A program made the position numbers and the translations under genes. The notes under the pieces were generated by a model that was given only the letters and a program-made list of their open reading frames with translations, was not told the origin of the DNA and made no database searches. 64,000 nt of DNA from Bacteroidales bacterium (lineage in GTDB: Bacteria; Bacteroidota; Bacteroidia; Bacteroidales; Marinilabiliaceae): the NCBI GenBank assembly GCA_003249255.1, contig QKJP01000026.1, forward strand, positions 62,001-126,000, in the 5' to 3' direction. Positions 59,917 through 64,000 of this stretch are shown piece after piece (position 1 is the first letter of the stretch; every line of letters starts with the position of its first letter).

Positions 59917-61233
59917 ATGGCCAATATATTTAGTAAGCTTTTTGGAGGCGGAAAATTTCCTTCAACAAACAAATTTGAAAGTCAACTTAACGAGTTAACA
60001 AGTACCTATAAGCGTTTTACAGATTATGAAGCATCTGAAAGTTACAAACGTTATCAAGAACTAGATGCAACTGTAAAATCAGGCGATTTTGTAAATAAAG
60101 TAAAACAACTTAAGACACAGAAGTTTAAGGATACTCAGGAGTTTATTAAGTATAAAGATTTTTTAACGATAAGTAAAGCGGCTGATTTGAAGAAGTATTT
60201 GAAGTATGTTGAATCAGGAATGCCAGAGAAACTTGATGCATTAAAAGAATCAGATGAAAAAAAGTACAATAAAGAAGTTAGTTCTCCTTTATATAAAAAC
60301 TATGCGGCATTAAAAGGGTCTAATCGTCTACAAAAATACCTTCAATTAAAAGAATATGTGGAGTCTGAAGAGTTTAAAAGCTTCAAGACTTATATGGAAG
60401 ATAAAAACAAGTTTAAAAAGTCAGATGAAAATTCACTTTTAACAGAGCATAAAGAAATTGAGAAGTCTTCTGATTTTGCCTGGTATCAGAACATAAAAAA
60501 GAAAAATTTGTTTACTGATATTGCAAGTTGGAAATTAACTTTTGAAGAAAACTTTGGAGCCTCAGCATTAGATAATTCAAAGTGGATAACCGGGTATTAT
60601 TGGGGTAAAGCCTTATTAAATGATACTTATGTGTTAGCCAATGAGCAACAGTTTTTTACAGATAAAAACATACAGATTCAAGGTGGGAGCGCAGCGTTGG
60701 TTACTAAAAAAGAATCAGTTGATGGTAAAGTTTGGGATACTCAATATGGTTTTATTCCTAGGAAGTTTGATTATACTTCAGGTTTAATAAGCTCCGGTCA
60801 GAGCTTTAGACAACTTTATGGAAAATTTGAAGCCAAAGTGAAAGTAGATAGTGAAGCTAATTTAACTCATGCTTTTTGGATGGTTGGAGAAAGTGTTGCT
60901 CCTCAAATTGATATTTTTAGATTTTCTAAAGAAGATGCAAAAAAGTATGTTGCAGGCATACATACCATGGACGGAAATACTCCATCACATAAAACTAAAT
61001 TAGTTGATGGTGCTGACTTTGGAAGTGATTATTACATCTACTCATTGGAATGGACTAAAGAAAAATTAACCTGGAGTATCAATGGTGTGAAAGTTCATGA
61101 GCAGAGTACAAATGTGCCACAAAATCCAATGTACATTGTATTAAGTTCACATATTTTGGATGCAGAAGCAGATGTAACGTTACCAAAATCAATGTATATT
61201 GATTGGGTAAAGTGTTATCAGAAACTCAATTAA
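59917..61233 (+). CDS. GH16-fold protein lacking catalytic glutamates, with helical N-terminal region
   Basis: A 438-aa protein without signal peptide (starts MANIFSKLFGGGKFPS). Residues ~20-200 are highly charged helical repeats rich in Lys, Glu, Phe and Tyr (YKRYQELDATVKSGDF, FKDTQEFIKYKDFL, LQKYLQLKEYVES). Residues ~205-438 are a GH16/laminarinase-type jelly-roll (LTFEENFGASALDNSKW ... YGKFEAKVKV ... YIYSLEWTKEKLTWSINGVKV ... MYIDWVKCYQ). The E-x-D-x2-E catalytic motif is replaced by Gln330-Ile-Asp332-Ile-Phe-Arg335, so hydrolysis is unlikely. A cytoplasmic binding or structural role is inferred. Confidence 0.82.
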   Translation: MANIFSKLFGGGKFPSTNKFESQLNELTSTYKRFTDYEASESYKRYQELDATVKSGDFVNKVKQLKTQKFKDTQEFIKYKDFLTISKAADLKKYLKYVESGMPEKLDALKESDEKKYNKEVSSPLYKNYAALKGSNRLQKYLQLKEYVESEEFKSFKTYMEDKNKFKKSDENSLLTEHKEIEKSSDFAWYQNIKKKNLFTDIASWKLTFEENFGASALDNSKWITGYYWGKALLNDTYVLANEQQFFTDKNIQIQGGSAALVTKKESVDGKVWDTQYGFIPRKFDYTSGLISSGQSFRQLYGKFEAKVKVDSEANLTHAFWMVGESVAPQIDIFRFSKEDAKKYVAGIHTMDGNTPSHKTKLVDGADFGSDYYIYSLEWTKEKLTWSINGVKVHEQSTNVPQNPMYIVLSSHILDAEADVTLPKSMYIDWVKCYQKLN

Positions 61234-61253: not shown

Positions 61254-61282
61254 AAAAGGTCGGTTTTACCGGCCTTTTTTTA
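61254..61282 (+). terminator. Rho-independent terminator after the GH16-fold gene
   Basis: Stem AAAGGTCGG / CCGGCCTTT (one G-U pair) with a short loop and seven T residues. It separates the GH16-fold gene from the aminotransferase operon. Confidence 0.9.
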
Positions 61283-61419: not shown

Positions 61420-62544
61420 ATGATCTATTTAAATAATTTTTCAACCGGGTTTCCTAAGCCTGGTTGTGTGTTAAAAGGCATTAATGACTATTTAATTAGT
61501 CCACCTGATGATTCACTCAGGAATGGAGGTGGAGAGTCTATTGTTAATTCATGCCGTCAAAAAGTCGCCAAGTTTTTTAAATGTTCTAGTGAGTATCAGG
61601 TTATTTTGACGTCTGGGGCAACAGAAGCCTTAAATCTTGTATTGTTTGGTTTGTCAGGGATGTCCCATGTTATAAGTACAGTAACAGAGCATAACTCAGT
61701 AATACGCCCTCTTAAATTTTTAGAAAAAGAAAAGCAACTTACCATTAGCTGGATAAAATGTGACTTATATGGTTATGTTGATTTGGATGAATTAAAAGCA
61801 AATGTTCGTTCGAATACTACAGCTATTGTAATTAATCATTGTTCTAATGTTACCGGTGCAATTCAGGATTTGAGTGAAATAAGCAAAATTGCCCAAGATA
61901 AGGGTGTGTTATTAATTGTAGATGCCTCCCAATCAGCAGGGGTCATTGAAATTGATCTTTCTGTGACAAAAGTTGATGCCCTCATATTTACAGGGCATAA
62001 AAATCTATTCTCTACAAGCGGAGTAGGAGGAGTGGTCATCCATAAAAACTTATCCTTGAAGCCACTTCTTCATGGTGGTACAGGTGTTAAAAGTAGTCTA
62101 CTTTATCAACCTGAAGAATTCCCTTATAAATACGAAGCAGGCACAATGAATGATGTTGGTTTTGTCGCCTTAAATTATGGCTTGGATTACATAGATTCCA
62201 TAGGGTTGGATAATATTTTTAATCAGAAGAAATCATTAGTTGATTATGCTCTACCTCAATTAAAATCCATCTTAGATATTCAGGTGTTGGAATCTGAAAC
62301 AACTCGAAAAAGCATACCAGTCATAAATATACAACACAACGAATTTAGCGTAGAAGATTTGTCCTATATTCTTCATCATTCTTATGGTTTTATAACGAGA
62401 TCAGGATTACACTGCGCGCCCTTAATTCATAAATATATTGGCACAGATCCGGAAGGAACAATTCGACTTAGTTTTTCGCATTTGAATGTAAAGTCAGATA
62501 TCGACCAATTAATAAAAGCCCTTACCGAAATCTCTAAATCTTAA
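61420..62544 (+). CDS. Class V aminotransferase, cysteine-desulfurase-like
   Basis: A 374-aa PLP enzyme. Key residues are His91 (TVTEHNSVIRP), Asp168 (LIVDASQSAG), the Schiff-base Lys194 (TGHKNLFSTSGVGG) and Cys332 in the C-terminal SGLHCAPLIHKYIGT loop, followed by GTIRLSFSHLNV. This Cys context is that of the TIGR01977-type desulfurase-like subfamily rather than IscS or SufS. It could release sulfur or selenium from cysteine or selenocysteine, or eliminate from another amino acid. It leads an operon with two small proteins and two V4R-like proteins; no scaffold protein is nearby. Confidence 0.85.
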   Translation: MIYLNNFSTGFPKPGCVLKGINDYLISPPDDSLRNGGGESIVNSCRQKVAKFFKCSSEYQVILTSGATEALNLVLFGLSGMSHVISTVTEHNSVIRPLKFLEKEKQLTISWIKCDLYGYVDLDELKANVRSNTTAIVINHCSNVTGAIQDLSEISKIAQDKGVLLIVDASQSAGVIEIDLSVTKVDALIFTGHKNLFSTSGVGGVVIHKNLSLKPLLHGGTGVKSSLLYQPEEFPYKYEAGTMNDVGFVALNYGLDYIDSIGLDNIFNQKKSLVDYALPQLKSILDIQVLESETTRKSIPVINIQHNEFSVEDLSYILHHSYGFITRSGLHCAPLIHKYIGTDPEGTIRLSFSHLNVKSDIDQLIKALTEISKS

Positions 62545-62547
62545 GCT

Positions 62548-62832
62548 ATGGAAATAATCAAAATCACGGAAATGGAAACTTGCTTTGATGGCACCTCCGT
62601 TTACGAACTTAGTTTGTCAGATGAGATGACCGAAGCATTTATGAAAGAACTTGTCTATAAAGGCTATCTGGATTATTATCCCAATTTTGCCCGACCTTTC
62701 TTTCGTATAAAATACCATGATGGATTTTATATAAAAGGGATCCTTGGCTCGAATTCATTGAGAGTTCATACCTACGAAAAGGCTTACTTAGATGAACTTA
62801 AGGTGTTTATAGAGGAAAGAGTTTGTGTCTAG
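62548..62832 (+). CDS. Small protein of unknown function (94 aa), aminotransferase partner candidate
   Basis: A 94-aa alpha/beta protein, three bases after the aminotransferase stop. It is not a family I recognise. Sequence features are an ETCFDGTSVYELSLSD opening strand with one Cys, an aromatic central stretch (GYLDYYPNFARPFFRIKYHDGF) and IKGILGSNSLRVHTYEKAYLDELKVF with a final Cys. The size, position and patterned strands suggest a small binding protein, perhaps an acceptor or carrier for the aminotransferase; that is inference. Confidence 0.65.
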   Translation: MEIIKITEMETCFDGTSVYELSLSDEMTEAFMKELVYKGYLDYYPNFARPFFRIKYHDGFYIKGILGSNSLRVHTYEKAYLDELKVFIEERVCV

Positions 62833-62895
62833 CTGAAATAATTATTTTACACTATAGAATCGTATTAATACTCCAAAAGAGTAAAACCTAACCTT

Positions 62896-63078
62896 ATGGC
62901 AGATAAGTTATTACAGTATTATGCTGATGCCAAAAAAATTGGCGGATTAAAAGCGCAAATGCGTCTGGCGATTATTACAAAGATCCCCAGTAGTAAAGCA
63001 AGTTCGGAACCTGATACTCCGGATAATATAAATGCTTTTGAAGCGGGGTTGAGAGAGATTAAAAAAGAGTTTAATTAA
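62896..63078 (+). CDS. Small helical protein of unknown function (60 aa)
   Basis: A 60-aa protein with two helices: LLQYYADAKKIGGLKAQMRLAIITKIP and NINAFEAGLREIKKEF, joined by a Ser/Pro-rich linker (SSKASSEPDTPD). There are no Cys residues and no membrane segment. Its place inside the operon (63 bases after one gene, 14 before the next) and its clean composition support a real gene. I do not recognise the family. It could be a helical adaptor for the V4R-like proteins. Confidence 0.55.
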   Translation: MADKLLQYYADAKKIGGLKAQMRLAIITKIPSSKASSEPDTPDNINAFEAGLREIKKEFN

Positions 63079-63092
63079 TAAACAATGTAATT

Positions 63093-63620
63093 ATGGCTAA
63101 TTTTGTTAAAACCGAACTTAAAGTAAAACATACATTTAATCAGCGACTTAAGCGTCATTATTTAAATGATATTCAATCCGTTTATCATTGTCATCATTAT
63201 AGTGCCTTGTATACTCAATTAGCAATTGATGCTAATGAAGAAGCGTTATTAGCAACCGCTGCTGAAGAAAATTTCTACGTGATGCTAATAAACTATTTTA
63301 AAGAAAACAATGTAGAAGATATAGAATTAAAAGTGATCTTGGCTTGTGAGTATTATTCAGTACTTGGTTTGGGTTCTCTTACTGTTGATGTATTATCAAA
63401 TAATATGAGTATTGTTTCTTCTGAAAATTCCCATATCGAATTAGGATGGATAAAGAAATGGAAAAATTACGATAAACCTGTAAATTATATTGGTTGTGGT
63501 TACGTTTCGGCGATGTTATCTGCTGTATTAAATCATCCAATTGGAACTTTCGAAACTGTTGAATTACAAAGTATTGTGATGGGGTCAGAAAAAACAATTT
63601 TTAAATCGTATGTAAAATAA
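63093..63620 (+). CDS. V4R-like (4-vinyl-reductase domain) protein 1
   Basis: A 175-aa protein. The central and C-terminal parts have the look of the V4R / XylR-N small-molecule-binding fold: long helix (LLATAAEENFYVMLINYFK), a strand pair (VILACEYYSVLGLGSLTVDVLS), then IGCGYVSAMLSAVLNHPIGTFETVELQSIVMGSEKTIFKS, where the G-x-L/M helix and V-E-x-Q-S-x-x-M-G end are typical. The family binds hydrophobic or tetrapyrrole ligands. No DNA-binding domain is present. A second V4R-like gene starts eight bases later. Confidence 0.6.
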   Translation: MANFVKTELKVKHTFNQRLKRHYLNDIQSVYHCHHYSALYTQLAIDANEEALLATAAEENFYVMLINYFKENNVEDIELKVILACEYYSVLGLGSLTVDVLSNNMSIVSSENSHIELGWIKKWKNYDKPVNYIGCGYVSAMLSAVLNHPIGTFETVELQSIVMGSEKTIFKSYVK

Positions 63621-63628
63621 GATAAGAT

Positions 63629-64000
63629 ATGTCAATAGATAGAAAAAAAATTATAGATGATATGTCTAAAATTCAGGTTTTAGGTAATTCCAGAGGGTTA
63701 ATTGAAGCGTTTAATGTTTATGTTAATCAATTACCTACTAATTTTTGGAATACCTTTGCCGAACGCTTAGTTGCAAAATCAAATTTAGATCTTGTTTCCG
63801 ATGTTGAAAATTTATTGATTTACGCAGCTCGGGAATGTGGTTATCATACCGGTTATGGCATTATTACTTCAGAAGAGTGGAAGGCAATTGTTCAGCCCAT
63901 GGTTGAAACTACAGAAGATGTGCTTCATGGAGCTTTTGCTGTATTTACAGCCTGGGGGTGGGCACAAACCGAGATTTTAGAATTGGTTCCGGGAGAGAAG
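63629..64000 (+). CDS. V4R-like protein 2 (partial, cut by right edge)
   Basis: ATG 63629 opens a frame that continues for 124 codons to the window end without a stop. The visible part is helical at first (IIDDMSKIQVLGNSRGLIEAFNVYVN), then shows AARECGYHTGYGIITSEEWKA and GAFAVFTAWGWAQTEILELVPGEK, a pattern I associate with V4R-like proteins (GYHTG turn, W-G-W-A strand). Its end is missing, so domain closure cannot be checked. It is eight bases after V4R-like protein 1 and clearly in the same operon. Confidence 0.6.
   Translation, partial: MSIDRKKIIDDMSKIQVLGNSRGLIEAFNVYVNQLPTNFWNTFAERLVAKSNLDLVSDVENLLIYAARECGYHTGYGIITSEEWKAIVQPMVETTEDVLHGAFAVFTAWGWAQTEILELVPGEK

Follow-up and report, generated by a model that had tools for sequence, protein, structure and literature searches.

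A five-gene operon that couples a predicted cysteine desulfurase to two small orphan proteins and a pair of V4R-type proteins recurs, in varying gene order, across several bacterial phyla. The best overall explanation that we can offer for it is a twin-V4R sensor whose sulfur comes from the enzyme together with its small partner, an account that we advance tentatively and rate at somewhat less than an even chance.

Organization of the operon

The operon lies on the forward (+) strand at the end of the window, by which we mean the whole 64,000-nucleotide stretch of DNA analyzed here. Its genes, for which we use the working names P1 to P5, encode a 374-aa protein with the class V aminotransferase fold and a cysteine desulfurase-like (TIGR01977/SufS-type) character (P1, 61420..62544), a 94-aa protein with a predicted small alpha/beta (TBP-like) fold and an invariant Cys12 (P2, 62548..62832), a 60-aa protein representing a module tied elsewhere to V4R and GAF sensor proteins (P3, 62896..63078), a 175-aa protein with a predicted V4R fold, an invariant HCHHY motif and no zinc cysteines left (P4, 63093..63620), and a 201-aa protein that is V4R-type by profile (P5). 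The window holds 124 of the 201 residues of P5 (63629..64000); the remaining 234 bases of its reading frame lie beyond the window end, so that its true end falls at window-equivalent position 64234 (L002:5629-6234). Intergenic gaps from P1 to P5 are exactly 3, 63, 14 and 8 bases, a terminator-like hairpin of 11 pairs with a T run (61254..61278, +) precedes the operon, and a second strong hairpin is found 3' of P5 at window-equivalent 64259-64297. The tight five-gene order after a terminator described in the original prediction is thereby confirmed in its reading frames, its gaps and its upstream hairpin.

The leader 11-mer AAACCTAACCT ends one base 5' of the ATG of both P1 (61408..61418, +) and P3 (62884..62894, +). 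These are its only two exact copies in the 64 kb window, and it may serve both genes as a signal for translation or transcription. As had been proposed for the 94-aa and 60-aa proteins, no known family accommodates these small genes: P2 to P5 of the window have no match in Pfam, NCBIfam, PHROGs or PADLOC. At 59917-61233, the window also encodes a 438-aa protein with a helical repeat-like N-terminal half and an apparent GH16-type beta-glucanase domain; it has no evident signal peptide, which is odd for a polysaccharide enzyme.

Conservation of the gene block

A search for P5 among 60 close relatives found none, and a wide genome scan was therefore needed. Among 395 genomes of the phylum a relative is present in only three others, and the alignment built from these phylum relatives was used to scan 84,980 species genomes. 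The scan yielded 17 loci in two forms. In clade I, made up of 12 loci and the window (13 genomes), P4 and P5 are separate genes; in clade II, made up of L016-L020 and genomes G388 and G448 (n=7), they form a single fused protein of about 390-440 aa, one of these loci (L019) being incomplete at a contig end.

Within clade I, P2, P4 and P5 are present in 13/13 genomes, P3 in 12/13 and a block-type P1 in 11/13. The order P1-P2-P3-P4-P5 is seen in the window and in L021, L022, L026 and L027, the order P3-P4-P5-P1-P2 in L023, L025 and L028, and P3-P4-P5-P2 in L007/L032, L024 and L029; L030 carries P2-P4-P5 and L031 carries P3-P4-P5. The host taxa are Bacteroidota, Riflebacteria, Omnitrophota, Coatesbacteria, Phycisphaerae, Eisenbacteria and Zixibacteria. 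The same gene content in shuffled order across many phyla argues for more than a chance neighbourhood, and the recurrence of the set in 13 genomes of several phyla upholds the earlier proposal that the five genes make up one system. Plasmid and viral collections contained no detectable relative, leaving a mobile-element or phage origin unsupported.

In two Ignavibacteria (L070:1193-2625, and L007:57-1202 with G429:C5:16779-17060), a second P2 paralogue stands beside P1. These P1-P2 pairs adjoin an apparent phenylalanyl-tRNA synthetase alpha-subunit gene, far from P3-P4-P5, which suggests that P1-P2 and P3-P4-P5 act as separable gene modules.

The predicted desulfurase and its small partner

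P1 is predicted to be a cysteine desulfurase with a complete active site. It matches TIGR01977 over its full length at 372.2 bits, just under the curated cut-off of 377, and Pfam Aminotran_5 at 2.5e-73, and its top PDB match is SufS; its 321 bits against the SclA model miss the curated cut-off of 525. The protein has the fold and active site of a type II desulfurase, with the catalytic Cys placed within an R-x-G-x-H-C-A loop. Residues H91, D168, Q171, H193, K194, C332 and R349 are invariant in nine aligned block-type P1s; Lys194 and the C-terminal loop Cys332, which the original prediction had singled out, are thus not only present but conserved in 9/9.

The block-type enzymes constitute a lineage of their own. 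In profile searches the clade I block-type P1s score 490-597 bits (ten genomes besides the window), including those not adjoining P4-P5, and all seven clade II genomes lack a block-type P1, their best scores (88-232 bits) being those of generic SufS-like proteins. The block P1s are monophyletic, with support of 96/91 in a tree that leaves out one very long Deltaproteobacterial row (an earlier tree with this row was badly rooted), and the clade takes in the P1 copies of three Ignavibacteria that are encoded at a distance from P4-P5. The P1-like genes of two Zixibacteria, both of which keep P4-P5 and P2, do not belong to this clade, and this is why block-type P1 is counted in 11 of the 13 genomes. 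Sequence identity of the window P1 is 42-43% with its block counterparts in Ignavibacteria and Coatesbacteria, but only 29-34% with TIGR01977-type genes from the same family and order as the window genome. Second SufS-like copies in these genomes are taken as housekeeping enzymes. The tie between aminotransferase and neighbours, as first conceived, therefore holds for the block-type lineage but not for the wider TIGR01977-like family, whose members occur without the block in about 10/40 relatives. A role in defence was rejected, since the PADLOC SspA/DndA matches to P1 reflect a generic desulfurase and no other defence gene is present.

P2 lies directly 3' of P1 in 10/11 genomes with a block-type P1, often with a 4-base overlap, and this adjacency holds even at loci that have moved away from P3-P5. 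All aligned clade I sequences of P2 have Cys12, and a cysteine aligns with it in the clade II relatives. On the strength of adjacency and invariant cysteines, P1 and P2 may form a desulfurase-acceptor pair, a reading for which we consider the chances evenly balanced. The clade II genomes keep the P2 cysteine though P1 is absent, so Cys12 may have another role. No sequence similarity links P2 to SufE, SufU, TusA or other known acceptors, and no Foldseek match is significant. The predicted structure of P2 (pLDDT 91.5) bears only a TBP-like resemblance, at a Z of 8.8 that may reflect mere common topology and a Foldseek E of 0.14 or worse; given these values, the idea of P2 as a DNA-binding (TBP-like) protein was set aside.

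The V4R pair

Neither P4 nor P5 of the window reaches the gathering score of Pfam V4R (PF02830), and two P4 orthologues match it weakly (best 1.7e-5). An orthologue of P4 from L027, 39% identical to the window protein, was modelled with a mean pLDDT of 90, and the solved structures that it matches best are those of the MopR, PoxR and DmpR phenol-sensor domains (Z about 17, TM 0.73-0.77; Z 17.5 for MopR), followed by MJ1460 (Z 12.6) and TRAPP Bet3. Judging from this orthologue model, P4 is a protein of predicted V4R/Bet3 fold. In the fused clade II proteins, the N-terminal half corresponds to P4 (hhalign 99.7%) and the C-terminal half to P5 (99.9%). The fused proteins pass Pfam V4R, with E down to 3.5e-16, and one of them matches NCBIfam MsvR at 1.1e-9. 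A direct profile link from clade I P5 to the XylR_N-V4R proteins failed; the link holds only through clade II, whose C-terminal half matches the V4R domain of the XylR_N-V4R proteins at E 6.8e-7, and it is by these two steps that P5 can be classed as putatively V4R-type. The original view of both proteins as V4R-like is thus sustained for P4 by fold and for P5 by profile, but not by their own Pfam V4R scores. As their homologues make up one fused chain in other phyla, P4 and P5 probably associate as a heterodimer to form a twin V4R unit.

This unit has an unusual cysteine complement. The V4R zinc-site residues read A/G/G-A in P5 and N/S(2 C)/S-T in P4 of clade I, and C in clade II; that is, all three zinc cysteines are lost in clade I P5 and nearly all in P4, whereas clade II retains them. 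Invariant in every aligned sequence are the Cys of the P4 HCHHY motif, Cys70 of P5 (in ECGYHTGYG) and the V4R Glu. Neither P4 (175 aa) nor P5 (201 aa) was found to contain an HTH, AAA+ or DNA-binding domain.

Links to signal transduction

Histidine kinases, CheW/MCP/CheA neighbours and GAF domains tie relatives of the V4R pair, of P2 and of P3 to signal transduction, a connection missing from the original prediction. Relatives of P3 directly follow XylR_N-V4R proteins in L106, L127 and L128, and the P3-like module is found N-terminal to a GAF domain in L129:916-1806, L130:1501-2262 and L105:922-1776. P3 appears to represent an unnamed sensor module of wider distribution than the block system. 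The P3-GAF fusions come from two congeneric Bacteroidota genomes and from a Deltaproteobacterium. The XylR_N-V4R proteins paired with a P3 homologue (L106:1453-2337, L127:1495-2299, L128:775-1695) stand alone, without a DNA-binding domain, and we regard such pairs as a second, simpler sensor unit.

In clade II, a histidine kinase gene lies 3' of the fused V4R gene in 4/7 genomes (L016, L017, L018 and L019), and three of these loci (L016:8164-11089, L017:10028-13189 and L018:9941-12800, from Cyclobacteriaceae, a Deltaproteobacterium and Bacteriovoracaceae) are three-gene units of fused V4R protein, P2-like protein and histidine kinase, with PAS in two; in L019 it is a kinase-receiver gene that comes after the fused gene. 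In G388 and G448 a winged-helix-like protein is encoded 5' of it. Among the clade I loci, the block neighbours include CheW in L025 and CheA in L021 and L028, and an MCP gene lies directly 3' of P5 in L022. CheW-domain genes (CheW/CheA) are found less than 4.5 kb from the block in 3/13 genomes against 0.16 expected (P about 6e-4, in a post hoc test). No signalling gene adjoins the operon in the window genome.

Proposed mechanism and alternative readings

The signalling links of the V4R pair and of the P3 relatives point most readily to a twin-V4R sensor in the cytoplasm, for which P3 would act as adaptor. In such a module, P4 and P5 would form a twin V4R ligand-binding unit in the cytoplasm, and P3 would be a small adaptor of the kind associated with V4R/GAF sensors, probably passing the signal on. 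P1, as a PLP enzyme, would desulfurate cysteine, carry the sulfur as a Cys332 persulfide and transfer it to P2, its dedicated partner, at the invariant Cys12. P2 might in turn deliver sulfur to, or mature, the V4R pair, where the Cys of the P4 HCHHY motif and Cys70 of P5 are the candidate sites. What the V4R pair then reports to its chemosensory or two-component partners could be the supply of cysteine or sulfane sulfur, or else a ligand that depends on sulfur. The gene set, its co-occurrence, the P1 lineage, the V4R fold, the intact active site, the invariant cysteines, the loss of the zinc cysteines and the signalling links of the relatives can all be read from the sequences; for the heterodimer, the signal output, the persulfide relay and the direction of that relay, we infer the steps just described. 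A sensory role for the block, that is, a cytoplasmic sensor module, seems to us likely. The conjunction of that role with the P1-P2 pair and with sulfur reaching the V4R proteins falls a little below an even prospect. Against it count the P2 cysteine of the clade II genomes, kept where P1 is absent, the lack of a signalling gene beside the operon of the window genome, and the two Zixibacteria that have P4-P5 and P2 but no block-type P1. The most specific version, in which a zinc-free twin V4R receptor is loaded with a persulfide, or with a ligand made from sulfur, by a dedicated desulfurase and a small acceptor of a new type, and in which the flux of sulfur would itself be the signal sent on to chemosensory arrays or kinases, we hold to be somewhat unlikely.

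A biosynthetic or storage function would have P1 and P2 make, or put sulfur into, a small hydrophobic compound or cofactor carried by the zinc-free V4R pair, with clade I taking no part in signalling. The loss of the zinc cysteines sets the clade I V4Rs apart from sensor V4Rs, no kinase is encoded inside the operon, and the TRAPP Bet3 homologues of the fold, which figure among the structure matches (6aq3), hold a covalent acyl chain, all of which speaks for this possibility. Nonetheless, both P3 and the fused V4R relatives have links to sensors and kinases, and the block keeps no further biosynthetic enzyme, and we deem such a function rather improbable. Also worth weighing is an MsvR-like thiol-redox or persulfide switch, in which the cysteines of the V4R pair and of P2 would sense oxidation and P1-P2 would repair or reset them. 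The MsvR match of the fused relative (1.1e-9), the role of V4R cysteines in the redox-dependent DNA binding of MsvR (PMC3729527) and the invariant Cys in P2, P4 and P5 are consistent with it. The case is weakened, however, because the switch cysteines studied in MsvR are those lost in clade I, the retained ones lying elsewhere, and we give such a switch only a small chance.

Two further readings concern the enzyme itself. The 321 bits of P1 against the SclA model might point to a selenocysteine lyase that supplies SelD or some carrier of selenium, but this score is far under the cut-off of 525, and SelD above cut-off is absent from the window genome and from 6/12 other clade I hosts. The missing SelD makes a selenium route very improbable, and the selenium transfer that the original prediction had entertained is not borne out for the window genome. 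It is harder still to credit that an ordinary Fe-S or tRNA-thiolation desulfurase lies beside unrelated small genes by chance. Such a coincidence could draw on the TIGR01977-like genes that lack the block, yet the block-type P1 forms a separate clade that tracks the block across phyla, and the content of the block is kept while its gene order varies.

Significance and comparison with known systems

To our knowledge, V4R domains are common and few of their ligands are known. Cysteine desulfurases feed Fe-S clusters, cofactors, tRNA and DNA, and we know of none described as feeding a sensor. The pairing of desulfurase and V4R proteins in many uncultured phyla hence provides a concrete place in which to seek a new V4R ligand and a new sulfur acceptor, and the window genome has the block while its sampled close relatives lack it. 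Our analysis also delimits P2, P3 and the zinc-free V4R pair as three orphan families that are conserved, and connects them to a fused, kinase-coupled form. Were the sulfur loading of a sensor to be true, it might constitute a new principle.

The V4R phenol sensors MopR, PoxR and DmpR, which are NtrC-type regulators with XylR_N and V4R domains, share their sensory-domain fold with the predicted fold of P4. The block differs from them in having no AAA+ or DNA-binding domain, in the loss of the zinc cysteines, in its two separate V4R chains and in the PLP enzyme of its operon. MsvR, a redox-responsive V4R regulator of methanogens (PMC3729527), is similar in its V4R domain and in the match to the fused relative, but combines an N-terminal HTH with three V4R cysteines, whereas the window proteins have no HTH and clade I lacks those cysteines. 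Clusters encoding a V4R protein pair together with partners are also known, namely the pre-PcyA-associated clusters and the cyanobacterial slr0144-slr0149 cluster (PMC10151467). These contain a BBAG globin, an Fe-S protein and often a heme oxygenase or bilin reductase (PMC10151467); in a comparison of gene lists, none of these was recognized in the block, which has P1, P2 and P3 instead.

On the side of the enzyme, type II cysteine desulfurases hand their persulfide to a dedicated acceptor (PMC8300815). P1 and P2 resemble the SufS-SufE/SufU, CsdA-CsdE and SclA/TIGR01977 systems in the full catalytic set and in the small Cys-bearing partner adjoining the enzyme. They depart from these systems in that P2 has no detectable sequence similarity to the known acceptors and in that the block is tied to V4R proteins and not to Suf or tRNA genes. 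The literature searched yielded no paper covering both a V4R domain and a cysteine desulfurase. V4R sensors, V4R pairs and desulfurase-acceptor pairs are thus each already known singly, and what is new, in the sense of being undescribed in that literature, is their combination, together with the zinc-free V4R pair, P2 and P3.
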